NCBI GenBank assembly: GCA_963669155.1
Contig: OZ022576.1
Coordinates: 21,188,008 to 21,252,007, forward strand
DNA length: 64,000 nucleotides
Reading direction: 5' to 3'
Source of the DNA: Arbacia lixula
Lineage: Eukaryota; Echinodermata; Echinoidea; Arbacioida; Arbaciidae
Shown one piece after another: positions 1 to 41,027 of this stretch (positions are counted from its first letter, which is position 1; each line of letters starts with the position of its first letter). The translations under genes were made by a program, and so were the position numbers. The notes beneath the pieces are model-generated. The model did not search any database, was not told the origin of the DNA, and saw only the letters and a program-made list of their open reading frames with translations.

Positions 1-626
1 GCATAAGGGGGGATCTAGCAATCATCCTTTCACTCTTAAAGGTAGTTGCGTCAGTATTAGTAATGTTATTTACTCCTTGCCCATCAGCCCAACCTAGCAA
101 TTGGGTTTCAAGATTATGAAAAGCACAAAAGTTTGTGCCCTGCCTTAACAACACAGCAGCTATAGAGATGAGAAGCAAACATAATATATGAAACTTATAT
201 GTCCATTAAGCCTGCAATAGGTGAAACCCTGTATGCCCTATTGCTATGCTGTATGATAAAGCATAATGGCTTGATGATACATTTTACTTTATGCCTAGAT
301 ATGATTAGATGGAGTGAGCCAACTTTGTTCTAATATGTTTCATGTGTCACTGGAAAGATTAGAATATCTTCCCTGCTAATTATGCTATGGTGATAAATCA
401 ATGTCTGTTTATTTATACTGTACTCTGTTTTATTGACCTTTGCTACAGGCACAATAAATTTCCTCTTATACTTGAAAGATAATTTGGCAGCTTTGATTCA
501 TGGGTTTTGGTCGTGATATGCGGTTATATTCCTTCAGAAATGATCAAGACAATCAGCTCTGTGATGGTGCCACTGACCACTGACCACAAACTCTTTCTGT
601 ATGTCTACCTATCTCCATGCTGACAG
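1..626. other. Intron sequence upstream of first visible exon
   Basis: AT-rich, no coding signal seen. It ends in a CAG acceptor at 624-626, so it is the intron before HYR1. The phase-1 acceptor shows that at least one further upstream exon exists outside the window. Confidence 0.6.
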
Positions 627-866
627 ATATAACACCACCCACCATCACCTGCCCCACTGACATCACTCAGCCGGCAGACTCAGGGACCAATTCCACCTCC
701 ATCTCCTGGTCTGATCCGGTTGCCGCTGACAACGTAGGAGTGATTAACATCTATGGAAACGAGACCAATGGCACTACCTTTGAGCTGGGCGTACATGTGA
801 TTGCGCTGACTGCGATTGATGATGAAGGGAATTCAGCCTCGTGTGCCTTCAATGTCACCGTCATCG
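627..866 (+). CDS. aGPCR exon: HYR domain 1
   Basis: 80 codons, phase 1 to 1, acceptor CAG at 626 and donor GTAGGC at 867. It encodes a full HYR (hyalin repeat, Ig-like fold) module: it opens DITPPTITCPTDITQ, has the Trp of the SWSDP segment, and ends with the paired-Cys segment NSASCAFNVTVIG. Several N-x-S/T sites are visible. Confidence 0.88.
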
Positions 867-3800
867 GTAGGCTTATTGTTACCAAATTAAGAAGATTTTC
901 AAGCCAATAAAAAGCAACACAAATTGTCGGCAACCTGTTGTTAATCAAGTGCAAAAAACAGTCATGAATATGAAAAACAAAACCTTATAGAATCATTGTC
1001 AGATGTAGGGTGCATTGTTATTTAGATGACTCCTTTTACTACTTCAGCTAATATTTAGGAGGTAGGATAGGAGTCCTAATTGTGCTTTAGTAAGGTGTGG
1101 GCTAAGGATTAGGGTTTTAGTTTTGGTTGAATAAACCTAGTCTTGAAAGGAAGTTTCAAAGTTGTATGTTGACACTACACGAGGATAAGACAAAAGTGGG
1201 TGTACTGGTAGACCAAATAGTTTAATACCCTGACCCAGTGGCCCTAAATAGGAGACTTCAATAAATGAAATGTTTTATTTATACTGTTGGCCAGTCAAGA
1301 AACTGATGTGAAATGCGTTCCTCTCCAAAGGGTTGCCACTTGTGGGATTCAGGCCCTGACAGTATTAGCTCATACAGATTTTGAAATTTGTTTGTGTATA
1401 AGGAATGTCCTTTCAAGCCCTGGATAGAAATATAAATAAGTATACCCAATCTGTGTACCAAGACAACTCAAAGGAGACATACACGTCTCTAGAGACAGTG
1501 GACTTTCTGTACCAGGTGAATTATTTTTGTTCTTTATATATATATTCATGAGTCATGAATTATCTAAATAGATTAAAAAAATCATGAATCATGAATCGTG
1601 AATCTCTTCATGATTCAAGAGTCATGAATCTAAATAGATTCAAAGAATTGAGGTTCATTCCAGTGCAAATAATAGCTTCCCAAAAGTAAAATATATGCCT
1701 TCTCAATATTTTTTTCAGCCCCATTACATTATATGCAAAATGACAATTGATGGCTTTTGCACTTTTTTTTCTCTTTATGTTTTTATATTTGCACTTTTGT
1801 TTTGTATTATAGAATTTGTAACATATACTCATAGCTTGTTCCCTCAGCATTAGGTAGCAATTGTGTTTTTATTTGTCTGCCTCTGTAGACACGGAGCCAC
1901 CTGAACTAATCTGCCCTGATAACATTACCCAGCCGACTGACCAAGGTGTATATACTGCCCTCGTTGAATGGCCGATGCCAGTAGCTGTGGATGCTTCAGG
2001 AGACATCCCGTTCATCCAGATAACTCCCCAGATGTACCAGTCTGGAAGCTCCTTTCCTGCTGGAAACACAATGCTGAGTGTGCTTGCAAGCGATTCAGCA
2101 GGGAATGTTGCCAACTGCAGCTTTTGGGTCATAGTTTTAGGTGAATACTAGTTCCTTAATATTGTGTGCAATGCTAGTTTTTATGATCCTAAGGTCACCG
2201 TTTGTTTCTTATTCCACCGACTCTTGCTTTTTTTGTTTATGAATTTAATTACACTGAAATTCATTCCGTGACACTCTGTTCTTTGACTGCTTGTGAAACA
2301 AACATGACTACTACTGTGTATGCCATATATTTGTGAGTCTCATTTTTCGTGAATCAGAACTTCTGACAATTTCACAAGTGGTTTAATTCGCGATTGTGGA
2401 GTACTAGTACTGGTACTAGAAGTATATGTGTTCATGCAGATCATATTCATGTCACAATCAGAGTTAATATCTTTACATGTTGTTAAATTCACGTATGGCA
2501 CCTGACTTGCATAATTCACGAAAATAAAAACCCAGCAAAATATATGGGGTATACAGTATGATAATACTACTTTTGTTACTTTTTTCTACCACTATTATGA
2601 CTTTTGCTAAATGCCTACTGTATATGACTACTATTTCTTCTTCTACGACAGCTGCTACTGGTAACTGCTGCCATCTCTACTGTTTCTTCTACTCAATTTG
2701 TTGCTTCTGTTTACAATGTCTGATGTTGTTTTTCTAATATTTATTCATACAAAAAAAATTGTAATTGTTCATAGGTGAGAAAGCTACTTGTTGCGACTGT
2801 GCTTATGCCTTGTTGTGTATATGAACAGTTAGATCAAATGGCTATTGTCTTTAATGTGAAGTATCATGGAGACTCAAAGAATTTGGAAGAGGTATTTCCA
2901 CAAGTAATCTGTCCCTAGAATGGTTAGACAGAGATATATGCATAACATACTTACTTACTAACATAGTTACTTACATTGGTAATACATGTATATATTTATC
3001 AATGCATTATCAATATTATAATATTGTAGAATTTCCTTTTACTTTCTGTCTAATTTAGACATGGAGCCCCCAAACATAACATGCCCAGAGGATGTTTATG
3101 CTACTACAACTCACAACTTTTGTTCCGCAAATGTGACCATTGGGTCAGCCATTTCTACCGACAATTCTGACCCTCAGCCTCGAATTGTCAATGAGCCTTT
3201 TATGAATGAATCACTAGCGGGGAAGTTTGCCTTGGTGCTTGAGGACTCTGACGATGCAGGGAATAGCGCTAGATGTACAGTGACCATCACTGTGGAAGGT
3301 AAATGAATGTATTCTGTTGGTTGGCATAACTCACGAATGCACAGCTTCAAGTGCATTTTATTAATTGTTTCTTCACAAATAGCTATATTATTTCAGAACT
3401 AAGTTCGATTTCTTCTTTGTTTTGTTCAGAATATGTTACTTTCTTAAAGACTGTCTACGTTAATTAGTTTCAAATATGTCAATTCAGCTGTGGAAAATTA
3501 TGGTGAGCATGTGCATATTTATTACGGAGTAGGAAAGAAAGCTTAAGTACACCTTGTACATTTAAAAAGGTGTTGTTTGTTTGCCTGACAAATGCAGTGC
3601 ACCAGTAATAAGTTGTCAATCTTTGTTTACCAGTACAGCGCCATAAATCATGATATTCATGTTCACCTAATGTAAAGCTTTCCCTCTCCAATATTTGTTT
3701 TTTTGAATCTGTCACCCACACTCACTGTTATGACATCCTACTTTATATCCCTTCTGTGAGATTTCTAGGAACGTGATTGGTCAATTGATGCTCTGTCAGC

Positions 3801-6800
3801 TCTGAATAGTTTTCATTTTTTTCCCGAAGCAGCACTGCGCATGCTCTATTTACTATTTTTTCCTTAGCACTACTGTGCATGCTCCCTACCTGTAACAAAA
3901 TTTGTTTGACTACGAGCAGTACACGTGATACATTTCTTTCCAGCTGCTTTTTTTTTTTGCGTTTTAGCGGAAAATCATTGAGTGCACTATGGGAACTTTC
4001 GCGGTGTTGTGGCCGAGGGGCAACTTGAATTTCCTTTGATTTGCCCAAGCTGCAGGAAATGAAAACAAACAAACAAATGAATCGGGCTCCTACGTTTAGA
4101 GCTTAGAGCAATATTAGAGATATATTGATCATGCATTTTCTTTGAACTTTGATAGATTTGACCTGTTGATAGATGCAATTAAAGTCCTCAATATTTTCCC
4201 CTTGCAGCAGTTCAAACCGAACTCGGTCACTGGAGGTCGCCATGTTTGTTTACAATCTCTGTTGGTCGGAACAGTTGAGCGGGTGTAAATTAGTGCACAG
4301 TGCATGCATGCAGTGCACGGCGTGTAAGCATTCACCTGGGATGAACCGATATCGAGACAGAGGGGAAAAGGGCTACTATTTTTGTTCTGTTATTGTTGTA
4401 CAAAAGGGATATAAACAAATATCCCAAGCATTAAGTTCGAAAGTATAGTGGAAATTATCCATCTTCGGAGGGACTGGCATAAGTTACTATTTTTTCCACT
4501 GAAAAAATGGTTCTATGCCAGTCCCTCCTCAGGTAGATAATTTCCATTATATCCCTCATTAATATATTCCAGTTCGTTGATTGGTTGAAAGGGTGTCACA
4601 TGACCATAAATAGATGAACTATTTGAAGGAAAGAGAGCTCAGAGGGAAGAAAAGTACTATTTCGTGACGTCAGAGGGAAAAAAAGTACTATTTCGTGACG
4701 TCATGTCAAAAATAGTCTCTTTTTTCCCTCTGGACTATCGATATCCGGGCTATTAGTGATCGATACAATTTGCATCGATTCATCCCAGGTAAATGCGCGA
4801 CACGCAAAATCTGCGCGATACATTTCTTTCCAGCTGCCTTTTGACGCTTTAGCGGAAAATTATTGGGCGCGCTGCCAGAACTCCCGCGGTGTTGCGGCCG
4901 AGGTGCAACTTGAATTTCTGTTGGTTTGCTCAAGCCGTAGGAAATAACAAAACATCTGAATCGGGCTCCTGCGTTCGGAGCTTAGAGCATGGGCACTATA
5001 TTACAAGGTCCATGGTAAGGATTAAATTAATGAGCAAAGAATATATTAATGAAGGATATAAAACAAATATTTCATGATCTTTATTCGGGAACTTTGTGGA
5101 ATCTATTGGTCCCCTCGGTGAAAAATAGTACCGCACGCCCTCCACTTAACCTCGGTGCAAATAGATTCCACAAGATCCCTCATGGTCATGAAATATTTGT
5201 ATACTATACAATCTCACAGCTTGGTATATTTGTATAATATAAAACCGTTTAGTACAGACATTCAGTGAATACATGCTGTGTAAGAAATTGTTATCCCAGC
5301 TGTGTCATGTAAATTTCACTGTTCACATTGGGAGGGCAGGAAATTCCAGGGATGTTGATTTCAGAAAACAACATTGATTGCACTGTTCTTATGCATGATT
5401 GGGGGTATATTTCAAGCCTGTAAACTGTAAACAGGAAATACCCTGTATGTTTCAATTACCTGTGCATCAACTTCATTGCCCTTATTCAGTAATGACCATA
5501 TAGAAAGCAGACATATGATGCAGTACTACTGTAGATGACAAGAGATATTATTGCATTTTAAGGCCACCACAGATGTGTAAGGGCTTACAAGTATACACAT
5601 GGAGTCCCTTTCTTGCACAAATCCAATGACCAGATCCTCCGATTCAGCCAGTCATAAAGCTGTACGACTGATAGGATCGTGCCATGTGTGTGGTGACCTT
5701 TATGGATAACCAGCTGCATTAAGTGAAAATAAGAGCAGTTAGTGAAAGAAAATACTACTCTATTTACTTGGTACCTTGAAGACATAAAACAGCAGTTTCC
5801 CACACCTATCTTTAATAGTAACCTTCTCATGGCATGCTATAGATTAAGTTCAGAGTATTTTGTTTCCGATATTTTCAAGCTAGTTAATAAATCTGCTACT
5901 TACTGGAATTGAATGGGAGTCCCGGAGAGGTTTTTTTTTAAACTTAAAGACAAGGTTTCCTTTTTGCAGGTCAAAAAATAAAATTTGGAAAAAAACACAT
6001 TGAAAATGGAGAAAATACTGTATGATAACTTCCCTCCCAATAATAGAATTGAGAACTGACTTTCAGTGAAATTATAGCCATTGCTAGACTTTGAGGAGGT
6101 TTTGGGCTGGTCGTCCAAGACCTACAGCCTAAAGACCAAAGACTGCTGTTCGCTATGGTCCACACCAAATGTTGAGTTTTAACGGGGCACCTTGTCGTTA
6201 AGTGTTGTCGTAGGAGGTTGCATGTGCATTTTTTGCAATTAATTTTTTTCTTCTGAAATACATAGACAAGAGTATGTGATTGTAGATTAAACCCATTCTA
6301 TTAAAACATTATTTTCTGTCTATATTTGCAGACAACCAGCCACCCGATATCATGTGTCCCAACGACACGATCCAATCCACAGATGCAGGATTGTATGATG
6401 CGATCGTCTCCTGGCCGAATGCCAGTGCTTCTGATAATTGTGGTTTAGTAGTGCCAACTTCGGATTACCAGCCTGGGAGCCAGTTTCCGGTCGGAGAGAC
6501 TACAGTGACCTATACTGTCTCAGATAGCAGCGGGAACATGGCCAATTGCTCATTTCTTGTCATCATTCAGGGTAAGAATAATTTGGATTTATTACTCATT
6601 CTGAAAGTTGTGTAAATGTCGTTCCCATATGCCTTGGTAGAGAGGCAGAAATTGGAAGAAATGAAAGTCAAATATGTACATACATGTATATGTCTAAAGC
6701 TATTTCCGATACATATATTATGTGTGTATATGTGAGTGTGTGTGTCTGTGTACATGTATGTATGTGGGGTTGGGGGGGGGGAGGGTGAGCACTCTGTGAT

Positions 6801-9800
6801 TACTTACGAGTTCAGGTTTTTAATTTGCGATGTTGTGCTTTTATGAATTTCTTTAGTATTTACAATAGTATTTACAATCATGTGTCATGGGGTAGAACCT
6901 TTGTGAAAACTTTCCTTTTTGTCTCGCCCACCGGAGGTGAAGGCGAGACTAAGGGATCCAAATGGCGTCCGTCCGTCGTCCGTCCGTCGTCCGTCCGTCG
7001 TCCGTCCGTCGTCCGTCGTCCGTCGTCCGTCGTCCGTCGTCCGTCACAAATGTTAAAGTTTACCTGCAAGACTCTCTTTTGACAAATAACTTCACATGGG
7101 TTGCTTGGATTACAACCTAACTTGGGTCATAGATGCACTGGGGGTACCTTCATGTTATGGTACCGTTGGAGGTCACAGGATAAGGTCAAAGGTCATTTGA
7201 GGTCATACGTTAAAGTTTACCTGCAAGACTCTCTTTTGACAAATAACTTCACATAGGTTGCTTGGATTACAACCTAACTTGGGTCATAGATGCACTGGGG
7301 GTACCTTCATGCTATGATACCGTTGGAGGTCACAGGATAAGGTCAAAGGTCATTTGAGGTCATACGTTAAAGTTTACCTGCAAGACTCTCTTTTGACAAA
7401 TAACTTCACATGGGTTGCTTGGATTACAACCTAACTTGGGTCATAGATGCACTGGGGGTACCTTCATGTTATGGTACCGTTGGAGGTCACAGGATAAGGT
7501 CAAAGGTCATTTGAGGTCATACGTTAAAGTTTACCTGCAAGACTCTCTTTTGACAAATAACTTCACATGGGTTGCTTGGATTACAATCTAACTTGGGTCA
7601 TAGATGCACTGGGGGTACCTTCATGTTATGGTACCGTTGGAGGTCACAGGATAAGGTCAAAGGTCATTTGAGGTCATACGTTAAAGTTTACCTGCAAGAC
7701 TCTCTTTTGACAAATAACTTCACATGGGTTGCTTGGATTACAACCTAACTTGGGTCATAGATGCACTGGGGGAACCTTCATGTTATGGTACCGTTGGAGG
7801 TCACAGGATAAGGTCAAAGGTCATTTGAGGTCATACGTTAAAGTTTACCTGCAAGACTCTCTTTTGACAAATAACTTCACATAGGTTGCTTGGATTACAA
7901 CCTAACTTGGGTCATAGATGCACTGGGGGTACCTTCATGTTATGTTACCGTTGGAGGTCACAGGATAAGGTCAAAGGTCATTTGAGGTCATACGTTAAAG
8001 TTTACCTGCAAGACTCCCTTTTGACAAATAACTTCACATGGGTTGCTTGGATTACAACCTAACTTGGGTCATAGATGCACTGGGGGTACCTTCATGTTAT
8101 GGTACCGTTGGAGGTCACAGGATAAGGTCAAAGGTCATTTGAGGTCATACGTTAAAGTTTACCTGCAAGACTCTCTTTTGACAAATAACTTCACATGGGT
8201 TGCTTGGATTACAACCTAACTTGGGTCATAGATGCACTGGGGGTACCTTCATGTTATGGTACCGTTGGAGGTCACAGGATAAGGTCAAAGGTCATTTGAG
8301 GTCATACATTAAAGTTTACCTGCAAGACTCTCTTTTGACAAATAACTTCACATAGGTTGCTTGGATTACAACCTAACTTGGGTCATAGATGCACTAGGGG
8401 TACCTTCATGTTATGGTGCTGTTGGAGGTCACAGGATAAGGTCAAAGGTCATTTGAGGTCATACGTTAAAGTTTACCTGCAAGACTCTCTTTTGACAAAT
8501 AACTTCACATAGGTTGCTTGGATTACAACCTAACTTGGGTCATAGATGCACTGGGGGTACCTTCATGTTATGGTACCGTTGGAGGTCACAGGATAAGGTC
8601 AAAGGTCATTTGAGGTCAGGGATACAATTCTTTTGCGTAGCAACGGAGATCGCGATATTTCTGGTTATTTTCGCAAGTGGGCGAGACACAATATTGCTAA
8701 TGCCTTGTTTTAAAAAAAAAATCAATATTTCTAAAGTTGACTGAATGCTGTGTCATGACAATCGCTCTATATACAGCTGGCTTCTGAACTCACATTCAAT
8801 AAGCTTTGGTAGCACAAGAAGGTATTGGCTTGGGATGAGATTTATTGAGGTTCAAAAGGTTAAAGATCACACACCTATGTTCTCATCCAATTTGGAACAA
8901 ATGTGCACCAATCACCTTTGAAGCATCTTCAAGAATTTGAATCTGCTGATTTCCTATGGAAGGTCGAGGTACTGCAATGACATTGTCACATTCATGGGCT
9001 TCTCTTCTTTTTATTTCTTCAATTGATGACTTAAGATCGTGAATCACCCAACGTGACCTGCCCAAGTAACATCACTCAAGTACAAGATCTTAACAGTGCC
9101 GTTGCTGTAGTAGAATGGGATGATCCAGCAGTGGTGGATAATAGCGGCACCAACATTCAGCCAATGAGTGACACGGCCTCGGGATCCAACTTTAGTCTAG
9201 GTGTTACTCAAGTCAACATCATTGCTACTGACCTGAGCAACAATACAGCCTTCTGTACATTCACAGTAACCATCATTGGTATGTTCAAGTAACTCATTCA
9301 ATCTGAATTCATATGCAAATGTACTAAAAATGTTCCTTTTTAACAAATAAATGGAAAGACTGTCTGAAACATTTACTATCCAATTTAACCCTAATACTCC
9401 CGGGGTATTTCAAAGCTTGTTATTACCGGGGGGGGGGGGGGGGGGGGGGCCTGAGATCTCGGCCATGGGTCGCCGATTGCCTCAAAATTTTGCACAAGGG
9501 TAAAGAATTATGTAATCTACAAAGTTGTATAGCTAAATTTACGAAAGTCCTTTTATTTTTTTTCTAACTAATTAATTTATGCTAATTTATGCGAGAAATC
9601 GTAGATTTTTGTATTTCTCACTAAATAAAGCCTCAGGAATATTAATTTTTGGTACAAATGTCTTTCATAACTCCCTCATCAATTCTTGAAAGAAAAAGAT
9701 AGGTTGTGGTAATAATTTCTTATGTATTTTATTGTTTTTCAATTTTCTTATGTATTTCTTTGTTTTTCGTCAAGATTCAGATGCGTATGCGTGGGTGTGG

Positions 9801-33800: not shown

Positions 33801-36800
33801 TGGTGCAAAGATGGATCACTACTTGGGGTAGACTGATAACATTTTTGGTGAAATTTCGCATAGGTCAAAGGTCAATGCACTTTGCCAAAATTGGCTATTT
33901 TTCGCATTGAATCCAAATCTAATGATTCAATTCAAACAAACATCATACAGAGATGTGTCACTTCATGAAGGTAGACTGGTGAAAGTTTGGGTAAAATTCC
34001 TGAAAGGTCAGAGGTCAACGGTTTATGAATGGCCCCCAGATTGATACTTCTCACAATAAATCCAATTATGCATTTCAAGAAAACATGGTAAAAGAATCAC
34101 AAGGATACAAGGATGGATTTAGACAGACTGGTTAGATTGGAAGTCAAAGAAGTAAGAGATCAAAGGTCAAATGAACATTGCCAAACATGGAAAAACAGAA
34201 TGGTATTTTTATTTCACATAGGAATTCACTGGAACATTCTCAACCAAACAAACAGATTTTCTGAAAATAATCTAAATAGAGCTAGCAAAGAGGCGGAGGC
34301 ATATTTATCGACTGCGTGGCAGTCGAATTGCTCTAGTTTTATTTTATTTCCGGATCTCATTGTGTTATTAAATCCATGTGCATGCATGCATTCCTTGCAT
34401 AGGAGCAAATCACAACGGAGAATGCTGAGAGTGTGGCTGAGGAGACTGCTGAAATCACAGAAAACGCTGAGGAACTGACCTCAGATGGTCTGATGTCGGT
34501 AGCAGAGATCATTGAGGACATCACAGAAGTAGCATCGACGGATGTGCAGGTCAGTCAGTCCAGCTTGCTAGATATCAACATGGGGGATGAGGGACATGTT
34601 ATGTGCAAAGTAGAGCCCTTTATGTTACCACAGGAGCTTTATATGACAGCCCGTATGGTTGACACAGGCAACATCATGTCAGTAGTGAAGAAAGCCATGG
34701 AGACATGTTTGCACTGGTAAAACACAACATTCCCATAGGGTAATATGTGACCGCCCAGCTCGAAACCCACAAAAAGTCGCGGGGTACGATTTTCTATAAT
34801 AGACCAAAATATGTCATTTGTGTTGACCACATTAAATTTTTGAAGTTTGTCCTATCTGAAAGAGTGAACATTCCTCTATCTGCTGTCAAAATTTGGTGGC
34901 ACAAGACAAAACCGAGATATTAGCAGTTATTCTGGACCATAATTCTGATAATTCCTTCATACCGGTTGCCATGGGGTTTTGATTAAGATTTTCATTGACA
35001 CTTCTGCTTTGCGCGCATGAATGAACCCAATTTTAAAATCCTGTTTTCTCTCTTTCCTGTGAAACTGCACCTCCAAAACCTCTTTCATTCTAATCACTTT
35101 TTGACTCGGTTAGGATGGTCCAATTTTGACAAGTTATATATCATTTCAAAGCTTAGAACCTACTCTTTAAAACTATGTCAATTCATTTTGGGCGACTTTT
35201 TGTGGGTTTCGAGCTGGGCGGTCACATATGGAGTATGGAGTCTGGCAGAGAAGGAGTTGGCACAGTCAACAGGTTAAATTGTGGAGAGGGATTCATCATC
35301 ACATATAGGCAATGTACTTTAAAGTCATTTGTGTCCATCCATAGGCAATGTATTTAACATCCATTGTGTCCATGCATCCATTTTTGCATAGGTAATATAT
35401 ACCATTGCCATAGGATAGTAAGGAGAGGAGTTCAAGACATTTGGGTCCATCTGTAGTTGATAATGTCAATGATGATGACAAAGTGATCAACATGACAACA
35501 TGTCAAATAGTAAAGAAAGATTTATCATCAGACATAGGCAATGTGCATGAAAACCATTTGTGGCCATCCACAGGTGACAATGTCAATGGTGAACATCGTC
35601 AACAACATCGCGGAATCGTCCAGTGATGAGGAGCTAGAGGAGGCACAGCAGGAGAGCCAGGCGGCGTCCAGGATGGTCCAGGCCATAGAGAACCAGCTGC
35701 TCCTGGTGGAGGTGGAGGACCAGGAGGTCGTCCGCATTGTCCAGACCAACATTGCTGCAGAGGTGAGGATCCAGAGGGAAGGAGGTTCTTACATATGGGT
35801 CACTATATGAATCCTTAACCTTATGCCTAAATCGTAATCTTAGCTTGTGGTACTTAACAAAATTGGAATAGATCATTTTAAGATGGTAACACCATATGGA
35901 ATGTATCAGTCATTAGCCCCTCCCTATTCATCTCTTCCAGGCACTTGATGTTATCCCTGAGGACCTCGTTACGGGGATCTCCATAGTGATGTCTGCAAGC
36001 TCGGACGGGGAGAGCATCTCGGATGCAGACTTCCAGGTGACTGAGGGGATGGTGCAGGGCCCCGTCACCAATGACTCTCAGACGCCCGTTGCCCAGGCAA
36101 CCCTGTTCATCCCCCCTGAGGTGGCCAGCTCCATCCCTGATAGGGCGCGGCTTGTGGCCACCACCTACCTCGAGGCCAGCCTGTTCCCTTCGGAGGAGCT
36201 CACCACACTCAACCAGAACCAGAGTGACTTCAACCGCAGCATCTTCTCCCGCATCATCGCTGCCTCCTTCGGCTCCATCGTCGTCACTGACCTGGACACA
36301 CCCATCCAGCTGACGTTTGTGCCCACAAATGAGGTAAGACGGGTTCGTTGGTATGTGGAGAGTTCTTTTTGAAAGGGTAATAAATCCACCTTGACAACTT
36401 ATATGCTTTTCACACTAGCAAAAATTAGCCCCGTACTATCCTTATCCCCGTACTATCCCCAGCCCCGTACTATTTTTTGAAGCTTTTCACACTGGCATTT
36501 CTTAGCCCCGTACTATTTCTTAAACCCGACTAGCTGTTCTCACTCAAAATCGTTAGCTCCAGACTTTCTCGACAGCTTATGAATATTTATGAATGTACGT
36601 CTTGCACATCGACTCTTTACCACTCGGCATCAAGGTCACTCGCCCGTCGGGCCTTATCTGATTGGTCTCGGCGTTTCGGCCTTGAGAGCTGACACTGCAT
36701 TTCCTTAGCCCAGTACTATTTTTCGTTTCTACTCACACTGGCGCTCTTAGCCCCAGACTATTTGGCTTGGCCCTGCAATTGCGGTGTTAGCCCTGCTTTT

Positions 36801-39800
36801 TTGCAGGGCCAAATAATCCCGGATCATTGGTGGGGCTAGCCTACTTTGGTAAAAACCAATGTGAACAGAAAGTGGTCTAAGCTTAGCCCCGTACTATAGA
36901 TGGGGCTAAGGGGGGGCCTTAGCCCCACCTAAAGTACGGGGCTAAGGAAATTTTTGCCAGTGTGAAAAGCATATTAGGAGCAAACCTAGGCTCTATCTTC
37001 TAAAGATTTGTGATTGATCTGAACTGATTGCATGTCCAATTCTCTGTCTCTCATGTACAGTGTTATGATTGTAATTGATTGCAAATCTTTGTGAGATAAG
37101 GCACAGGTGTCTGAATCTGAGTTTTAATCATCATATCCTTTCTTATTCTAATCACAAATCCTTGTGCCCTTTAAGCAGTAAGTGAGGAGGTAAGTTGCTG
37201 AAGATTTGCAGTGTTTATGAATGTATACCTCTACTGCCCTTTTTTAGATCAACTTTAAGCCATTGTGTCTGTTAATGAAAATTGTGCTATATCCACTTTG
37301 AAAACCTAAGATGAAAGTAGGTTCCTTGATGAAGTTTTAATCATCACCTCCATCTGATCAGTGCTCGTCCACCTAATCCCTATCCTGATAAACTTTATGC
37401 CCAAACAACCAGTAAGAACTAGCAGGATTAGGATTTGTCAATGATTCTCAACCTAATCTCTAAATACCAAGATTTTTGCACTCAGTACCTACTCAAAATA
37501 TTTTTGCAGAATGCAACCAATCCGCAGTGTGTGTTTTGGGACTTTGAGGTGAATAGCTGGTCGACAGACGGGTGTCGGCTCCTGAGCAATGACAGCTTGG
37601 ACCAGATCGTCTGTGAGTGTGATCACCTGACCAACTTTGGTGTGCTCATGGTAAGTTCCTGATGGATCACATCTCCTTGAGGGTTCTGTGGTACTGAATC
37701 ACATGTGTGCACTTCTTGGCTGTTTGAACTATTTGTATGGAATATCGCAGAACTGTATCGAATACAGCATCATGGTTTGTGCATCATGCTACTTTCTGAA
37801 TGTATTTGTAGATACTGCACACTTTCCTACATATCATGATTATTTTCTTGTACTAGTTAGTGGTGGTGTTTGGGCATTTCATGTAGGACTTCGCGGGTCT
37901 CGTGAGTTTTATACAATCAACCTGAGTTTGCTCCATCCTGGTTTCAGGAACTGGTGTATTATATCCAGTCCATATAATAATAGTTAGAGGTGGAATTATG
38001 CTTGTACTTTTGGGAAAGAGTTTATTCACGTTGAAAGTTATTGAAATTAAAGTGAGATTGCATAAGATGTGATTCATTACAAATATGTAATCGGAAGTAC
38101 AACTCTGCCATCACACAATTAACTTTATAGGATATTTATGATGGGGAAGGGAATGAGGTAATGTAAAGTGAGGAATTGCATTAGATGTAAATGTATTCTG
38201 TTTATGAAACCATGACTACATCTTGACTATCTCACGGTAAATTTGCTTCATAATTTTTAATTTGCAGGACATCTATGGCGGGGCAGGTTTGTCTGATCAG
38301 GCCGACTTCATTCTGGAAATCATCAGCTATGTAGGTTGCGCTATGTCCATCTGGGGTCTGGTCATCACTATTCTGACCTACGCTACAAACAAGTAAGATA
38401 TCTGCTGACTACAAGAGTAGAATGGAGAAATTATCTTTTGATTGCACATCAACACTCTTTTGCAAATTCCCAAATGCATGTATAATTTTGTTTTGGTTTT
38501 GATTTTGTGCTGTAACTCTCCATGGTAATCAAAGTGATTACTCAATCTTGTTAGAATATAAGCAAAGAAAAGTGGACCATGCAGGACTTGAACCTGTACC
38601 TCTGCTTGCCAGGTAGCGACACTATCCACTAGGCTAACCACTTGGCTTATGGATAATGATTTAATACTTAGGAATATGGACCCAAGGCCTTCATTTCTCT
38701 TGCTTGTTTAATGTCGTATGTTATTTGATCTATAAAAAGATTGACACATTCAAGTTTACGGTACATAAGTTGCAGCTAACACATCAGATTGTGCTCACCC
38801 AAACCCTGTGTGCGTGCATGCTCACTTGCAGGAAGCTGCGGGAACGGAAGCCCAACCAGATCCTGATCTCCCTGTCGTCTGCTTTGCTGGGCATGTACAT
38901 CATCTTCATGGTGATGATCACCGTGGATACGGAGCGGGGCGTGGAGGAAATCCCCCCATTGCCGTGCTGCATCTTGGCCGGCTTCCTGCACTACTTCACG
39001 CTGGCGTCCCTCTTCTGGATGGGCGTGGAGGGCTACAACATGTACATCCTCTTTGTGCGAGTGCTGGACTCCTACGTGCCCTTCTTTATGCGCAAGTCCT
39101 CGCTTGTTGCATGGGGTGAGAGATGGTCACTTATAACCTTCCTGTGCCTCTGAGGCATTTTTTTGTATAAATAATCTACTGAAATCCAATAGAGTAGCAG
39201 TTTGTCTAGCACTCAGAGGGTTAACCCAGTCTCTGTCTGATTGTCTAATGCACTGTGCTTAATGTAATTCAGCTCACGCTCATGCTCACCTTAGGCTAAG
39301 CTCTTACATATTTAGAATTATTCATTTGATTGTTTTTGTTTATTGGTATCATTTCAAAGATTATTAGCACTACTTCACATATACTTTAATTTCACTCCCC
39401 CCCCCCCCCCCCCCGAAAAGAAGATGCAATTAAGATTCATTAAACAATGAACATTTTCTTGGAAGAGGATCAGTGATCATGGCCAATTGGCCTTGATTCA
39501 GAAGTTTCCCCACTGTAACATTTGATACTAATATTGCTTGAGATGTTTTTATTATTGTTATCTATTGAATACCATTTTATTTGAGCAGAACACAAATAAC
39601 TGTGCATGGTGTTATTAAGCTCTCCATTGTTGTAACTTGTAAGTCTGAGTTTGATTTTTACTCCTTTCCTATTCTTGTAGGAGGACCTATGGTGATAGTA
39701 GCAGTCACTGGCGGGGCAGCTCGCCAGTACTATGCACGCACAGACTTGTAAGTAGACATAATGGGCCTGTCTCCAGCTAATAGAAATGTTTGAGTAGAAC

Positions 39801-41027
39801 TTAATTATATGACTGGGTTCATATCCAGAAACCTCCATTTGAGGGAATCCAAATACATGCACATAGATTTTCAAATAGTGTAATTTGGCACTAAGTGTAA
39901 AGCTCATTGTTTGTTGTCATGTTTACAACTGTTAGATTTAAAATTGCTCGTGACCCTGTCCCAGTGCCTTTGATGGAATTTTTTTCTTGGAATTAACTGA
40001 TAAATTATATAATGAAAGCAACTCTTTCATCCACTGGAAATAATTGATATGCCGTGTAAAGTAAATGTTATATATTGTACTTTCCTATTTACCACTAGAA
40101 CAAGGTGGTATCATGACTCAAATTCAACTTGGTTAAGCTGAGAGATGGGAACTTGGCATATTCTTCGAAATTAGCTTAAAAATCTTTGTTTGAAAATGTT
40201 TGTATATCATAGATATGATACCAAGTGCTGTCCACAAATGGATAGCTCACATATTTTCATTAGAGACAGGCAATTAGACATATGTCATCGATTCAGATGA
40301 TTGATTCAGATCAATCACAACTCTTTAAAAGATTGGGCCCACACATGCTTTTTGCCTTTTTAGTACAGGAATTCACTTTTCTAAGAGAGGCCATCATGTC
40401 ATAAGCAACTCTCTTCCAAAGGTCGAGATATAATGCCACATTGTCTTGTGTTTGCTATCTAGTTGTTTCCTTCAATTCTGGCCTCTGATTGGTGGCATGC
40501 TGATCCCTATTGGTGTCATCATGATCTTCAACCTGGTGGTCTTCATCCGCGTCATGCGGCGCCTCGGCAAGACTGTCAAGGGGCGGAGCGTGGACGAGAC
40601 CACGCGCCGCCAGCGGCTACGGCGCTTCCAGAACGCCATCTGCATCCTTCTCCTGATGGGCCTTACCTGGTCGCTAGGATACCTGAGCATCATCCGGCCG
40701 GCCAGCGTGGCTGTCCAGGGGATCTTCACCGTCATCAACTCTCTCCAGGGCTACTTCATCTTCATGCTGTACTGCGTGCGGCAGCCCCAGGTGCGCCGGC
40801 AGTGGCGTGCCCAGTTCGGCTGCTGCTTACCAGCATCCATGCAGGTGACCAAAGGGTTCTCCTCCAGCGCAGCGCATACCAGCTCCACCTTCAACACCTC
40901 CAATAAGGCTAGGCAGCGTGCCAAGTCCAGCTCAGACTCTGCTGGATTCAGACCAGAACTCATAGCTCGGTCCCCTCCTGAGAGGTTGCCTAGGGCAGGC
41001 TTTGATAACGGGGGTGCTGAGATCTAG
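627..41027 (+). CDS. Giant mosaic adhesion GPCR (37 exons visible, 5' end outside window)
   Basis: Joined exons listed below give one open frame of about 2,562 codons ending at a TAG (41025-41027). Approximate residues of the visible protein: seven HYR domains 1-547, fifteen CCP/sushi 548-1518, EGF-like modules 1519-1652, Ig 1653-1737, SEA 1738-1846, HRM-like segment 1847-1926, GAIN 1927-2169, GPS 2170-2216, 7TM and tail 2217-2562. All splice junctions are GT-AG with compatible phases. Family knowledge: adhesion GPCRs self-cleave at the GPS and signal through a tethered peptide. The long ectodomain implies an adhesion or matrix ligand, which the sequence does not identify. HYR and CCP modules together recall SVEP1/polydom-type secreted proteins, but here they sit on a 7TM core. 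There is no signal peptide because upstream exons are missing. Introns in which I recognised no repeat or gene: 867-1888, 10863-11221, 11456-12005, 12228-12696, 12904-13347, 13540-14278, 14945-15852, 16045-16837, 17021-17355, 17551-18098, 18291-18799, 20256-20697, 20884-21648, 21841-22321, 22514-23559, 23752-24301, 24569-25001, 31804-32384, 37651-38267, 39116-39680 and 39748-40462. Confidence 0.9.
1889..2140 (+). CDS. aGPCR exon: HYR domain 2
   Basis: 84 codons, phase 1 to 1, acceptor TAG at 1888 and donor GTGAAT. It starts DTEPPELICPDNITQPTDQG and ends SAGNVANCSFWVIVLG, both typical HYR signatures. Confidence 0.88.
2311..2560. repeat. Dispersed repeat, copy 1
   Basis: About 240 bp that matches 58466-58715, in the same orientation, at clearly recognisable but diverged identity. 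Shared landmarks include the TGTATGCCATATATTT start, GTGGAGTACTAGTAC in the middle and ATTCACGA near the end. Family not recognised; no terminal repeats are evident. Confidence 0.65.
3059..3298 (+). CDS. aGPCR exon: HYR domain 3
   Basis: 80 codons, phase 1 to 1, acceptor TTTAG and donor GTAAAT. It starts DMEPPNITCPEDVYATTT and ends NSARCTVTITVEG. It lacks the Trp seen in most sister domains and has an extra Cys (NFCSANV), so it is more divergent. Confidence 0.85.
3740..5240. repeat. Cluster of foldback and duplicated repeats in the HYR3-HYR4 intron
   Basis: Three nested structures. (1) A diverged direct duplication, 3927-4112 versus 4817-4989, sharing the segments from GATACATTTCTTTCCAGCTG to GCTTAGAGCA. 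(2) An inverted repeat, about 4450-4482 versus 4512-4546, around GGAGGGACTGGCATA. (3) An inverted repeat, 5064-5115 versus 5150-5199, with CAAATATTTCATGA at its outer ends. A tandem motif with TTTCGTGACGTCA lies at 4650-4700. It looks like non-autonomous foldback DNA elements. The short frames in it show no known domain. Confidence 0.6.
6332..6571 (+). CDS. aGPCR exon: HYR domain 4
   Basis: 80 codons, phase 1 to 1, acceptor GCAG at 6331 and donor GTAAGA. It starts DNQPPDIMCPNDTIQSTDAG, has SWPNASASDNCG, and ends NMANCSFLVIIQG. A complete HYR module. Confidence 0.88.
6915..8712. mobile_element. Satellite-bearing non-autonomous element, copy 1
   Basis: The left end is TTTTTGTCTCGCCCACCGGA, containing a short hairpin (GTCTCGCC then GGCGAGAC at 6921-6949). 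A CGTCCGTCC-type microsatellite follows (about 6968-7043), then ten 157-bp tandem units (7052-8620). The right end contains AAGTGGGCGAGAC and finishes around ATTGCTAATGCCTTGT. The same left and right ends recur in copy 2 (25594-29380), so they define the element. GTCTCGCCCAC at the left and GTGGGCGAGAC at the right are an inverted terminal pair. No transposase is encoded. It sits in the HYR4-HYR5 intron. Superfamily not assigned. Confidence 0.75.
7052..8620. repeat. 157-bp tandem array, ten units
   Basis: Units start GTTAAAGTTTACCTGCAAGA at 7052, 7209, 7366, 7523, 7680, 7837, 7994, 8151, 8308 and 8465, exactly 157 bp apart. Units differ by only a few substitutions, so the array is recent or homogenised. 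Each unit holds four AGGTCA-type half-sites, including AGGTCAAAGGTCA and AGGTCATTTGAGGTCA. Confidence 0.93.
9036..9278 (+). CDS. aGPCR exon: HYR domain 5
   Basis: 81 codons, phase 1 to 1. It starts DRESPNVTCPSNITQVQD and ends NNTAFCTFTVTIIG. The acceptor that keeps the family phase is TTAAG at 9031-9035, a less usual AAG site; no better YAG lies close enough. Donor GTATGT at 9279. Confidence 0.82.
9385..10156. mobile_element. TTAA-flanked MITE
   Basis: A perfect 17-bp terminal inverted repeat CCCTAATACTCCCGGGG (9389-9405) and its complement (10136-10152) is flanked by TTAA on both sides (9385-9388, 10153-10156). No coding capacity; long G runs lie just inside both ends. TTAA target duplication is the hallmark of piggyBac-type insertion; the family assignment is inference. 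Confidence 0.8.
10671..10862 (+). CDS. aGPCR exon: HYR domain 6 (short, degenerate)
   Basis: 64 codons instead of about 80, phase 1 to 1, acceptor TGCAG and donor GTTAGG. It starts ARLYCPENVTTVADPFSE and ends EDECTFFVYVEG. The strand segment around the usual SxDxxGN motif is shortened to SGREDE. The frame is open and the phases fit, so it is probably still used. Confidence 0.78.
11222..11455 (+). CDS. aGPCR exon: HYR domain 7 (divergent)
   Basis: 78 codons, phase 1 to 1, acceptor CTCAG and donor GTGAGC. It starts ELVDPVCPESSVLEVASP, has SWQLPAQP, and ends YNCTFDIAVKG. The canonical PPxIxCP start is altered, but both Cys and the terminal strand remain. Confidence 0.78.
12006..12227 (+). CDS. 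aGPCR exon: CCP/sushi domain 1
   Basis: 74 codons, phase 1 to 1. It starts AVTCLVPELPNNL and ends GDLPFCEG. Six Cys, with GCNTGYNLKGS as the core CxxGYxLxG motif. It has a longer first loop than its sisters. Confidence 0.86.
12697..12903 (+). CDS. aGPCR exon: CCP/sushi domain 2
   Basis: 69 codons, phase 1 to 1, acceptor CTATAG and donor GTAAGC. VVTCPLPAMFPSFLLP at the start, ECATGYNQTGD core, SDLPHCG end. Six Cys. Confidence 0.87.
13348..13539 (+). CDS. aGPCR exon: CCP/sushi domain 3
   Basis: 64 codons, phase 1 to 1. IVQCLIPAYGPGL start, MCEVGYNLTGS core, SSSLPTCQG end. Six Cys. Confidence 0.87.
14279..14470 (+). CDS. aGPCR exon: CCP/sushi domain 4
   Basis: 64 codons, phase 1 to 1, acceptor AACAG at 14278 and donor GTAAGT at 14471. 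DITCEVPSFSPGLLTTD start, VCEQGYNLMGA core, TGPLPACE end. It has no ATG near its start, so a search for ATG-initiated frames would miss it. Confidence 0.87.
14750..14944 (+). CDS. aGPCR exon: CCP/sushi domain 5
   Basis: 65 codons, phase 1 to 1, acceptor CTCTAG and donor GTAAGG. VVVCGIPSSLPDEL start, ECSEGYDITGN core, SAELPTCQ end. Six Cys. Confidence 0.87.
15853..16044 (+). CDS. aGPCR exon: CCP/sushi domain 6
   Basis: 64 codons, phase 1 to 1. The phase-keeping acceptor is GTGAAG (15847-15852), another AAG site. LVMCSVPAFSPNLLAKD start, ECEEGYDLVGS core, SDALPICQG end. Confidence 0.83.
16838..17020 (+). CDS. aGPCR exon: CCP/sushi domain 7
   Basis: 61 codons, phase 1 to 1, acceptor TTTCAG and donor GTGAGT. 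VVTCSIPSFTSQLGSSC start, SCAPGYDLVGS core, TTTLPSCD end. The first loop is shorter. Confidence 0.87.
17356..17550 (+). CDS. aGPCR exon: CCP/sushi domain 8
   Basis: 65 codons, phase 1 to 1, acceptor CTATAG and donor GTGAGT. IVMCPIPEALPSQLGSAF start, ECSEGYTLDGS core, SGSLPTCDG end. Six Cys. Confidence 0.87.
18099..18290 (+). CDS. aGPCR exon: CCP/sushi domain 9
   Basis: 64 codons, phase 1 to 1, acceptor GACAG and donor GTTTGT. VVMCTIETLPSNLVTSS start, SCDVGFNLIGL core, SSNLPACEG end. The core Tyr is Phe here. Confidence 0.86.
18800..18991 (+). CDS. aGPCR exon: CCP/sushi domain 10
   Basis: 64 codons, phase 1 to 1, acceptor TGCAG and donor GTAAGG. VMTCTLSSFPSQLTADL start, SCENGYDLVGSAWTVC core, SNSLPQCQ end. 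It is the only CCP here with a Trp before the fifth Cys. Confidence 0.87.
19200..19751. mobile_element. TTAA-flanked MITE
   Basis: Terminal inverted repeats AGGTGATATTCATAG (19204-19218) and its complement (19733-19747) are flanked by TTAA at 19200-19203 and 19748-19751. No coding domain. It lies in the CCP10-CCP11 intron. Confidence 0.8.
20067..20255 (+). CDS. aGPCR exon: CCP/sushi domain 11
   Basis: 63 codons, phase 1 to 1, acceptor CCCAG and donor GTAAGA. VTCAVPASLPANLESPEC start, QCVVGFTLLGN core, SDTLPTCQG end. Confidence 0.87.
20698..20883 (+). CDS. aGPCR exon: CCP/sushi domain 12
   Basis: 62 codons, phase 1 to 1, acceptor CTATAG and donor GTATCA. VVTCTIPSFGSPLSSTTC start, RCDAGYTLVGS core, SDPVPTCQG end. 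Confidence 0.87.
21649..21840 (+). CDS. aGPCR exon: CCP/sushi domain 13
   Basis: 64 codons, phase 1 to 1, acceptor TTGCAG and donor GTAAGT. VVTCPVPSFPANLTAING start, ECSVGFSLVGE core, TSALPTCQG end. Confidence 0.87.
22322..22513 (+). CDS. aGPCR exon: CCP/sushi domain 14
   Basis: 64 codons, phase 1 to 1, acceptor TACAG and donor GTAAGG. AVTCSIPTLPAQLSPVD start, GCSMGYTLIGS core, SGALPTCQG end. Confidence 0.87.
23560..23751 (+). CDS. aGPCR exon: CCP/sushi domain 15
   Basis: 64 codons, phase 1 to 1, acceptor TTATAG and donor GTGGGT. VVQCSIPAFPANLTTSD start, ACQPGYEAAGN core, SADLPTCQG end. Last CCP before the EGF modules. Confidence 0.87.
24302..24568 (+). CDS. aGPCR exon: two EGF-like modules, second calcium-binding
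   Basis: 89 codons, phase 1 to 1, acceptor AGCAG and donor GTAACT. The first module (VIDICGDIKPCPMVSTC onward) is an EGF-like repeat. The second starts DIDECDATTPPCDANARC, and its DxDEC start plus the later N/D-x-F-Y-type segment NFAGSYLC match calcium-binding EGF. Confidence 0.87.
25002..25136 (+). CDS. aGPCR exon: EGF module
   Basis: 45 codons, phase 1 to 1, acceptor TTACAG and donor GTGAGT. DPCDLAPCQNGGTCTTSADG gives the standard C-x4-C-QNGGTC EGF pattern, with later Cys in TCACPVSYTDVNC. Confidence 0.87.
25594..29380. mobile_element. Satellite-bearing non-autonomous element, composite copy 2
   Basis: It fills most of the EGF-Ig intron. Two left ends (TTTTTGTCTCGCCCACCGG, about 25594 and 25868), each followed by a CGTCC microsatellite, and three right ends (GTGGGCGAGACACAATATTG near 27319, 28543 and 29348) show nested or serially duplicated copies. 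Between them are 157-bp satellite units and a second module with GGTGAAGGCTTCCTAACTTG. A near-perfect 1,225-bp tandem duplication is present (about 26130-27350 versus 27351-28575). The third block carries unrelated sequence at about 28998-29289 before the last right end. Confidence 0.75.
29441..29695 (+). CDS. aGPCR exon: Ig domain
   Basis: 85 codons, phase 1 to 1, acceptor CTCTAG and donor GTAGGT. EPPAVVTNPTSQSVDA start, LTFSCSF with the first Cys, FEWYKDS with the core Trp, then AEDQGYYLCRAVG with the DxGxYxC motif. A complete I/V-set-like Ig fold. Confidence 0.9.
29795..30100. repeat. Three 105-bp tandem copies spanning an exon start
   Basis: TCACAG acceptors at 29831, 29936 and 30041 are 105 bp apart, each preceded by the same polypyrimidine tract and followed by GATNTTGATAACT. 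Only the third leads into the open SEA exon. The first two run into stops within a few codons in the expected phase. Confidence 0.88.
30047..30156 (+). CDS. aGPCR exon: SEA domain, first part
   Basis: 110 nt, enters phase 1 and leaves phase 0; acceptor TCACAG at 30046, donor GTGAGT. It encodes DVDNFVVTASFNLAFNSSLT then DKSSVFYQNTANTVINF. It continues in the next exon as a SEA domain. Confidence 0.78.
30780..30996 (+). CDS. aGPCR exon: SEA domain, second part
   Basis: 217 nt, enters phase 0, leaves phase 1; acceptor CTGTAG, donor GTCAGT at 30997. It starts IKTPLQNSFQDPLSVLVKRF and then has FRSGSVVTDFSLYIYNG, the SEA core. The GSVVT at 30846-30860 resembles the SEA autoproteolysis motif GSVVV. 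It ends ASIQTLSA. Confidence 0.8.
31058..31420. repeat. Decayed tandem copies of the preceding exon end
   Basis: The exon end plus donor region (CCATCCAGACCCTCAGCGCT then GGTCAG and CTAGGAAAT) is repeated at 31063-31110. Weaker repeats lie near 31150, 31240 and 31365 (ATTCAGAC/ATTTAGAC with TCAGTGCTGGTCA). The copies are not open and have no consistent splice sites. Confidence 0.55.
31687..31803 (+). CDS. aGPCR exon: Cys-containing HRM-like segment, part 1
   Basis: 39 codons, phase 1 to 1, acceptor AACAG and donor GTAAGT. VTCAPMTFSTVYGEASFESG then ATCPDYTLN. The pattern G-A-x-CP followed by C-x-W in the next exon resembles the hormone-receptor-like (HRM) segment found before GAIN in adhesion GPCRs. 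That assignment is tentative. Confidence 0.72.
32385..32640. repeat. Small palindromic repeats in intron
   Basis: The segment 32515-32625 begins GCCATATTCATGAA and ends with the near-complement TTCATGAATGTGGC, enclosing a short hairpin-prone core: a MITE-like palindrome. The adjacent 32385-32510 holds GATCAATTCAGATC-type repeats with CGCAACTC, a motif also seen near 17150 and 40300. Confidence 0.55.
32665..32786 (+). CDS. aGPCR exon: HRM-like segment, part 2
   Basis: 122 nt, enters phase 1, leaves phase 0; acceptor TGCAG at 32664, donor GTTAGC. RFQHVLVATCEGDSVNPCVW then VSQDHCGRNLTADELLEILL. The last residues begin the helical subdomain A of GAIN. Confidence 0.8.
33126..34336. mobile_element. 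Hairpin-ended, AGGTCA-rich non-autonomous element (Helitron-like 3' end)
   Basis: Near the left, 33174-33203 forms a hairpin (ATGCCTCCGCCAC, GAA, GTGGCCGGAGGCAT), then CGTCCGTCC, then degenerate repeats of about 160 bp around GGATCACTACTTGG and AGGTCAGAGGTCAAAGGTCA. Near the right, GGCGGAGGCAT (34292-34302) repeats the left end inverted. A second hairpin CGACTGCGTGGCAGTCG (34309-34325) is followed 7 bases later by CTAG and then T, as at Helitron 3' ends. No encoded protein. The left limit is uncertain. Confidence 0.6.
34403..34549 (+). CDS. aGPCR exon: GAIN domain, subdomain A
   Basis: 49 codons, phase 0 to 0, acceptor GCATAG and donor GTCAGT. EQITTENAESVAEETAEITE then SVAEIIEDITEVASTDVQ. 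Amphipathic helices rich in Glu, as in the helical half of GAIN. Confidence 0.82.
34550..34742. other. Intron start, no feature recognised
   Basis: An open stretch reading LYMTARMVDTGNIMSVVKKA after a CACAG at 34634 recalls GAIN helices, but it ends in a stop and has no donor. It may be a decayed exon copy or chance. Confidence 0.3.
34743..35229. mobile_element. MITE with 37-bp perfect inverted ends
   Basis: 34743-34779 is the exact reverse complement of 35193-35229 (starts ATATGTGACCGCCCAGCTCG). There is no coding capacity inside. Clear target duplications were not identified beyond TA-rich flanks, so the superfamily is unassigned. Confidence 0.85.
35290..35590. repeat. Degenerate tandem copies of an exon acceptor region
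   Basis: Three related blocks: 35290-35360 (CCATCCATAG), 35428-35498 (CCATCTGTAG then GATAATGTCAATGATGATGA) and 35522-35590 (CCATCCACAG then the real exon GTGACAATGTCAATGGTGAA). The middle copy still resembles the exon start but is closed. Confidence 0.65.
35574..35762 (+). CDS. aGPCR exon: GAIN domain, subdomain A continued
   Basis: 63 codons, phase 0 to 0, acceptor CCACAG and donor GTGAGG. VTMSMVNIVNNIAESSSDEE then MVQAIENQLLLVEVEDQEVV. Helical GAIN segment. Confidence 0.83.
35941..36333 (+). CDS. aGPCR exon: GAIN domain, subdomain B
   Basis: 131 codons, phase 0 to 0, acceptor TTCCAG and donor GTAAGA. TLFIPPEVASSIPDRARLVA and later SFGSIVVTDLDTPIQLTFVP give the beta-sandwich strands that precede the GPS. 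FNRSIFSRIIAASF fits the usual variable segment. Confidence 0.9.
36401..36974. mobile_element. MITE rich in AGCCCCGTACTAT motifs
   Basis: The first 26 bp (ATATGCTTTTCACACTAGCA onward) match the reverse complement of the last 26 bp with one mismatch. Inside, TTAGCCCCGTACTAT-like units occur in both orientations, so the ends can fold. No coding domain. From its end to 37509 the intron shows nothing I recognise. Confidence 0.8.
37510..37650 (+). CDS. aGPCR exon: GPS cleavage motif and start of tethered agonist
   Basis: 47 codons, phase 0 to 0, acceptor TTGCAG and donor GTAAGT. CVFWDFEVNSWSTDGC then CECDHLTNFGVLM: four Cys, two Trp and the HL/T cleavage triad. The scissile bond falls between codons 37627-37629 (Leu) and 37630-37632 (Thr). 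The released end, TNFGVLM, matches the Stachel consensus TxFxVLM. Confidence 0.95.
38268..38392 (+). CDS. aGPCR exon: TM1
   Basis: 125 nt, enters phase 0, leaves phase 2; acceptor TTGCAG, donor GTAAGA. DIYGGAGLSDQADFILEIIS then YVGCAMSIWGLVITILTYAT. The end of the tethered agonist is followed by TM1 with the family's SYVGC start. It has no ATG near the start. Confidence 0.92.
38445..38645 (-). mobile_element. tRNA-derived SINE
   Basis: On the minus strand, an A box TAGCCTAGTGG (38626-38636) and a B box GGTTCAAGTCC (38584-38594) sit at pol III spacing, with an intact T arm CAGG-TTCAAGT-CCTG. The acceptor stem does not pair well and a non-tRNA tail with A-rich tracts follows to about 38445, so it is a SINE head rather than a working tRNA. 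Confidence 0.6.
38832..39115 (+). CDS. aGPCR exon: TM2-TM3 and start of TM4
   Basis: 284 nt, enters phase 2, leaves phase 1; acceptor TTGCAG and donor GTGAGA. PNQILISLSSALLGMYIIFM (TM2), PCCILAGFLHYFTLASLFWM (TM3 with its conserved Cys), then GVEGYNMYILFVRVL, and SLVAWG leading into TM4. Confidence 0.94.
39681..39747 (+). CDS. aGPCR exon: TM4
   Basis: 67 nt, enters phase 1, leaves phase 2; acceptor TTGTAG, donor GTAAGT. GGPMVIVAVTGGAARQYYAR: the family's GxPxxIVxVT helix. Too short to stand out alone, but fixed by phase and family pattern. Confidence 0.88.
40463..41027 (+). CDS. aGPCR last coding exon: TM5-TM7 and cytoplasmic tail
   Basis: 565 nt including TAG; enters phase 2, acceptor ATCTAG at 40462. 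CFLQFWPLIGGMLIPIGVIM (ECL2 Cys and TM5), AICILLLMGLTWSLGYLSII (TM6), VINSLQGYFIFMLYCV (TM7). The tail of about 80 residues is Ser-rich and ends GFDNGGAEI. It has no obvious class I PDZ ligand. Confidence 0.95.

Follow-up and report, generated by a model that had tools for sequence, protein, structure and literature searches.

The 64,000-nt stretch of DNA analysed here (C1:21188008-21252007 (+), within the 607-Mb Arbacia lixula genome in 590 contigs; hereafter the window) contains the greater part of a single, very large gene predicted to encode a cell-surface receptor. We consider it probable that this is a single giant adhesion GPCR gene, with an LDLa/EGF N-terminus, 36 HYR-position and 18 CCP modules, three EGFs, an Ig domain and a SEA-GAIN-GPS-7TM core, and that its product is a matrix- or partner-anchored receptor of the tethered-agonist type. 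The modules that an earlier note had read between 627 and 41027, and their order from HYR to 7TM, are present there as splice-consistent exons, most of them with Pfam matches, and are likewise visible in the reading frames of 1-42000.

The gene model was built by dynamic programming on splice-site and codon scores, with gene ends insertable at a cost. It predicts 37 exons on the + strand of the window (627-41027) in one open frame, all introns being AG/GT, and continues upstream of the window, where positions carry negative numbers, with 34 further in-phase exons from -30950 to -28 (LDLa, EGF, 29 HYR-position and three CCP exons). The intron that joins these to the window exons occupies 1-626 (+) of the window. 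The whole predicted chain of 71 exons, with AG/GT introns throughout, reads through 5,145 residues uninterrupted by a stop, and the model inserted no gene end between -31675 and 41027. The codon scores were trained on the exons of this locus itself, so that the coding scores are not independent evidence; the paralogous loci described below are. Four boundaries were set by hand, namely the weak acceptors at -25918, -5926 and 9036 and the SEA donor at 30156. All 59 exons of the chain up to the Ig exon are of class 1-1, including the 25 in the window, which begin at 627 and end with the Ig exon itself (29441-29695); the three hand-set starts are counted among them, and the model's original choices at those starts were likewise 1-1. 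This fits the phase-1 module shuffling that had been proposed for the gene. The description of the whole as phase-matched exons holds as class 1-1 for the modules up to Ig, but phases 0, 1 and 2 all occur among the SEA-GAIN-7TM exons, matching those of paralogue A.

The array extends more than 30 kb upstream of the window, and the 5′ boundary at 627 given in the earlier note was an effect of the window edge. Its counts of seven HYR and 15 CCP modules are correct by position as window content, but not for the whole gene, which has 36 HYR-position and 18 CCP exons besides LDLa and EGF. Seven was rejected as the true HYR number, since the array continues upstream and the count was set by the window edge. 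The 34 upstream exons are themselves preceded by a further two LDLa exons, which have poorly defined acceptors (Pfam 7.7e-10 and 2.1e-11); the initial LDLa exon of the model, modelled as a first exon, is excluded from the 71-exon chain. A search by similarity to the by-eye candidate of paralogue A found no signal peptide exon upstream of LDLa, and visual inspection of the listed + strand frames of at least 48-55 codons between -100000 and about -34000 revealed no domain exon. That region includes, upstream of the first LDLa exon, a frame of ~1,360 codons (-38422 to -34343) whose first 150 residues resemble, on inspection, a retroelement polyprotein. The window gave no hits in Rfam and tRNA scans.

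The seven HYR-position exons of the window, all on the + strand and of class 1-1, lie at 627-866, 1889-2140, 3059-3298, 6332-6571, 9036-9278 (start hand-set), 10671-10862 and 11222-11455, the last two being divergent. Five of the seven score as Pfam HYR (4.9e-76). The sixth gave no Pfam match at a limit of E=10, and the seventh gave fn3 at 0.0025, below the cut-off, together with one weaker match, and no HYR; as domain calls, the seven HYRs of the earlier note are borne out for five positions but not for these two. Pfam was run on nine of the 29 HYR-position exons upstream and scored seven of these nine, the other 20 being judged by eye, alignment and tree. The upstream exon at -2834, scanned alone, is not HYR by Pfam and has no coding signal of its own, and the exon at -5213 lies within a piece in which two of four HYR-position exons score. 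Eighteen HYR exons from -18800 to -8176 share a mean identity of 94.8% and are separated by introns mostly of about 280-300 bp; they are likely a recent expansion, and possibly one that varies in copy number.

The near-identity of these 18 exons suggests ongoing turnover of the array, as would suit a receptor that mainly serves immune or gamete recognition, in which the CCPs would bind opsonised targets or the HYR array a gamete partner, and the array would be a variable recognition region instead of a matrix anchor. A printed parallel is EBR1_5, a putative sea urchin egg receptor of 1,243 residues with seven HYR domains, SEA and a transmembrane domain, for which the accessible part of PMC5521101 describes positive selection in HYR. 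Among the array copies here, however, mean pN is below pS (0.039 vs 0.098), which at this crude level indicates no diversifying selection, and we regard a mainly recognition-type receptor as possible but doubtful.

The tree also bears on whether the upstream exons belong to the same gene. HYR27-28-29-CCP1-2-3 and HYR34-35-36-CCP4-5-6 form ordered sister pairs, a block of six domains, with support of 0.99-1.0 for the three HYR pairs, 0.987 for CCP2/5 and 0.946 for CCP3/6, while CCP1/4 are sisters at <0.8 within a three-member group at 0.898. This ordered pairing fits an internal block duplication. It also counts in favour of a rival reading, in which the upstream LDLa-EGF-HYR29-CCP3 exons would be a separate, tandemly duplicated and 3′-truncated gene, and the window gene would start between -28 and 627. 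The break-cost profile across the chain introns is poorly suited to detecting short signal-peptide exons, and a dedicated scan, itself crude, was therefore run in addition; it found four phase-fitting signal-peptide-like first exons in 56.5 kb of chain introns, and one of these four, a weak one, is at 199-313, in the intron between the upstream and window exons. A gene start at that place is possible. Yet the intervening intron is only 654 bp long with phases that fit on both sides, the best terminal exon in it scores below zero (-5.8), and HYR30-33 separate the two blocks, an arrangement that can result from an internal duplication. A separate upstream gene is thus unlikely in our estimate, and a single gene running through this intron is preferred. 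The upstream-window join and the CCP-EGF join are predicted solely from the gene model and phase.

Between the upstream HYR27/28 and the window HYR5/6, the two closest pairs, pS is 0.126 and 0.129 and pN 0.005 and 0.014; because pN is far below pS, both copies of these pairs look held as coding sequence. The exons 9036-9278/10671-10862 and -5926..-5684/-5213..-5022 share 96-97% identity that is limited to these exons and their edges, and the neighbouring CCP copies give short, weaker matches only. Identity confined to those HYR-position exons suggests gene conversion or strong constraint.

The array is followed by 15 CCP/Sushi exons of class 1-1 (12006-23751 (+); Pfam Sushi, 15 stretches, 7.1e-84), which start at 12006, 12697, 13348, 14279, 14750, 15853, 16838, 17356, 18099, 18800, 20067, 20698, 21649, 22322 and 23560. 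Two EGF exons come next on the same strand, one matching EGF and EGF_CA in Pfam (24302-24568) and the other EGF (25002-25136). Pfam finds one stretch of EGF_CA and two of EGF in this module, in which three EGFs are seen by eye, and homologous EGF exons precede Ig in paralogue A. The EGF-Ig intron (25137-29440 (+), 4,304 bp) is more than half made of a 157-bp tandem repeat. Arrays of this repeat, with 94-98% matches within arrays, occupy two introns of the gene (7052-8618 and 25973-28917), and paralogue A has frames of this repeat, or of a related one, within one of its introns (about 32620-33275 in reverse-strand positions). The Ig exon (29441-29695 (+), class 1-1; Pfam Ig_3 8.3e-08) is 42% identical to its counterpart in paralogue A.

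A probable SEA domain is encoded by two exons (30047-30156, donor hand-set, and 30798-30996 (+)) and carries a GSVV cleavage-type motif (RSGSVVTDF). The SEA assignment made earlier is weaker than stated there, the Pfam SEA score being below the cut-off (E=0.0097; 16.5 vs 26.4 bits). The PDB matches of a two-sequence profile were confined to MUC1 SEA, with one chain at E=0.44 and another at 0.62. A unit of 105 bp in about three copies (29792-30091) runs into the SEA acceptor, so that copies of the acceptor sequence precede the modelled one. Next come two exons of a cysteine-containing linker (31687-32786 (+)), which stands in the place of HormR/HRM, as in the SEA-HormR-GAIN order of Gpr126; it gave no Pfam HRM match at a limit of E=10. 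SEA and linker together are 40% identical to those of paralogue A.

The GAIN domain is encoded by three exons (34403-34549, 35574-35762 and 35941-36333 (+)) and is recognized by its matches to ADGRG6 structures, the ectodomain 6v55_A matching query residues 271-560 (5e-18) and 21du_R matching residues 275-838, that is GAIN and 7TM (1.3e-66). None of the Pfam GAIN models passed in the window protein, and one, the GPR128 GAIN model, passed in paralogue A (1.8e-05). The GPS exon (37510-37650 (+); Pfam GPS 7.5e-15) contains the cleavage motif and the start of a tethered agonist, CECDHL|TNFGVLM, and four exons (38268-38392, 38832-39115, 39681-39747 and 40463-41027 (+), with the stop at 41027) encode the 7TM core and C-terminal tail. 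Pfam 7tm_2 matches this core over profile positions 4-250 of 250 (5.8e-36), and its 10 hydropathy peaks were grouped by the analyst into seven helices. In the whole chain, 4,792 residues precede the GPS cut site, 171 N-glycosylation sequons are found, and the SEA and GPS sites are 412 residues apart. The features of an adhesion GPCR (class B2) found in the predicted protein are a 7tm_2 core, a GPS with an HL|T site and, by the ADGRG6 matches, a GAIN domain; these include every such feature that was testable, self-cleavage being represented by its motif.

A 7TM query gave 122 scored matches in the genome, counted by exon piece. The three paralogous loci that were fetched are the closest or have a nearby HYR match, and are not a random sample. 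Paralogue A (C1:20753001-20793000 (-)) contains a CCP, four HYR, six EGF_CA, an EGF pair, a further EGF, Ig, SEA-like exons, the linker, GAIN, GPS and 7TM, with a signal-peptide-like exon upstream by eye. Paralogue B (C16, +) has five HYR exons, two EGF, Ig, part of SEA and GAIN exons, and paralogue C (C2, -) has six HYR exons, two EGF, Ig, part of SEA and GAIN exons; in both, GPS and 7TM match as well, and do so on the strand of these exons. The HYR-EGF-Ig-GAIN order is kept at all three loci, and 7TM pieces are found at each. In the paralogues SEA was identified by visual inspection alone, in full in A but only in part in B and C, and Pfam at E up to 0.01 gave no SEA in the chains of A and C. 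Paralogue A and the window gene are 44.6% identical over 1,038 residues from EGF to the C-terminus, and their in/out phases are identical at 14 exons, the last exon being split once more in A. An ADGRF3 N-terminal model falls on one EGF of paralogue A, below the cut-off (0.0047). The chain of paralogue B has a frame break in GAIN (four stops, one small exon omitted) and entered the comparison only as far as Ig and the SEA half, for order, phase and intron size; in that of paralogue C, which stops in GAIN, the linker and half of SEA are missing, and the GPS and 7TM of C come from the 7TM query only.

These comparisons point to HYR-EGF-Ig-SEA-GAIN-7TM as a recurrent receptor type in this genome, with the join of HYR to 7TM as a family property. 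Acquisition of the array by the window gene alone, which the earlier note had suggested, is contradicted by the recurrence of HYR-EGF-Ig-...-GAIN-7TM on C1, C16 and C2; special to the window gene among the four loci compared are the predicted CCP block (18) and the expanded HYR array. The one receptor gene claimed earlier, with the array spliced to an Ig-SEA-GAIN-7TM core, is supported by frame, phase and the three paralogous loci. The converse, the two genes that the earlier note had named as its refutation, would be a secreted matrix protein of HYR, CCP and EGF modules whose gene stops after 25136, followed by an independent Ig-SEA-GAIN-7TM receptor with its start inside the 4.3-kb intron; the length and satellite content of that intron leave room for it, but a split there was rejected on paralogue order, phase and intron size and is very unlikely, because the paralogues keep the HYR-EGF-Ig-GAIN order with short introns at the EGF-Ig junction (415 bp in A, 410 in B and 1,024 in C, in the same phase), the free gene model put no end in the intron, and the simple, crude scan found no phase-fitting signal-peptide-like first exon in it. 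The Ig-SEA intron likewise contained none in that scan, and the HYR-EGF introns of A, B and C are 489, 348 and 317 bp. Elsewhere in the genome, the 150 best HYR matches include very large clusters at C17:1682298-1740925 and on C6 (around 4.9-5.1 and 18.9-19.0 Mb).

The solved protein that best matches the GAIN-7TM segment is ADGRG6 (228.5 bits), and ADGRG2 comes second (169.8). Constructs of little more than the 7TM make the subfamily less clear, with ADGRG2 at 119.2 bits, ADGRL3 and ADGRE5 at 105.5 each, ADGRD1 at 90.6, ADGRG5 at 71.6, ADGRF1 at 66 and ADGRG1 at 63. No Pfam match to CUB, pentraxin, VWA or Calx-beta was found in the pieces scanned, which included 16 of the 36 HYR-position exons. 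SVEP1/polydom is a secreted protein that combines VWA and pentraxin with HYR, CCP and EGF. The window gene shares the last three modules, and to that extent 'polydom-like' was an apt description, but it has no VWA or pentraxin match in the scanned pieces, on which ground membership in polydom was rejected; its predicted product ends in GPS and 7TM, and polydom has far fewer HYR domains. ADGRV1 is likewise a giant adhesion GPCR with a repeat-array ectodomain, built in its case from Calx-beta repeats, which the window gene does not match.

ADGRF5 carries Ig domains, with SEA and then Ig before GAIN, whereas the Ig of the window gene (29441-29695) precedes the probable SEA (30047-30996). We know of no HYR/CCP array in ADGRF5 or ADGRF1, and ADGRF1 scores below ADGRG6 and ADGRG2 against the window core. 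ADGRF5/GPR116 and ADGRF1/GPR110 resemble the window gene, with its probable SEA and GSVV-type motif, in having SEA near GAIN and self-cleavage motifs of the GSVVV or GSIVA type in SEA (PMC6954182, in the part available). The same part of PMC6954182 gives the order SEA, HormR, GAIN for Gpr126 and a precedent for cleavage at SEA. ADGRG6/GPR126, the best solved relative of GAIN-7TM, shares with the window gene a modular ectodomain and, given the probable SEA of the latter, the order SEA, linker/HormR, GAIN with SEA as a putative second break point, but has CUB and PTX where the window gene has LDLa-EGF-HYR-CCP-EGF-Ig (PMC6954182), and human GPR126 is cut by furin, unlike the GSVV-type motif here. 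By the features tested, the predicted window gene is not ADGRG6, ADGRF5 or polydom.

EBR1_5, with HYR, SEA and a transmembrane domain in one protein, is the nearest printed architecture found, a likeness by description and not by sequence; the accessible part of PMC5521101 describes it neither as a GPCR nor with CCP. EBR1_5 is possibly a relative, or a partial gene model. A partial search of the literature on adhesion GPCRs and HYR/hyalin repeats found no described adhesion GPCR with an HYR or CCP array. Within the available parts of PMC13197933, PMC4302439 and PMC6208332 there is no Sushi-bearing adhesion GPCR; hyalin was sought in the first two and HYR in PMC4302439 only, with none found, and the phrase 'hyalin repeat' was not found in the available part of PMC12716839. 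An HYR domain on some GPCR may already have been noted in an eLife paper that has 'hyalin repeat' and 'HYR domain' once each.

HYR arrays are best known from secreted matrix proteins, and exposure of a tethered agonist has been proposed for adhesion GPCRs such as ADGRG6. By analogy, and going beyond the gene anatomy described above, we infer cleavage, binding and activation as follows. The receptor would cleave itself at the GPS (HL|T), and perhaps a second time at the GSVV loop of SEA, the pieces staying together in both cases. The long array, predicted to be glycosylated, would bind matrix or a partner cell, and a pull on the array, or its loss, would expose the TNFGVLM agonist and render the 7TM core active. 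ADGRG4, with its long stalk, has been proposed to sense force or distance (PMC10687090, in part). Tandem exon duplication may vary the length of the array. A more speculative version, which we hold to be distinctly improbable, places two break points that cleave themselves (SEA GSVV and GAIN HL|T) one after the other below an HYR array that differs in copy number among individuals; tether length, and hence the trigger force or distance, would then be a heritable polymorphism, in a family that may include sea urchin HYR-SEA egg-receptor-like proteins.

The predicted receptor type couples HYR arrays to a G-protein signalling core and has several members in one genome. It can be used to test how ligand-binding arrays are acquired by adhesion GPCRs and whether array length sets a mechanical trigger. 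In genomes of this kind, gene models rich in HYR or CCP may represent truncated adhesion GPCRs. Downstream of the gene, the window contains a 533-codon open frame (58932-60530 (+)), Ser/Thr-rich by eye and unmatched in Pfam at E up to 0.01, which is perhaps a large exon of another gene, and a zf-RVT fragment (46663-47211 (-); 1.7e-09), a retroelement remnant.
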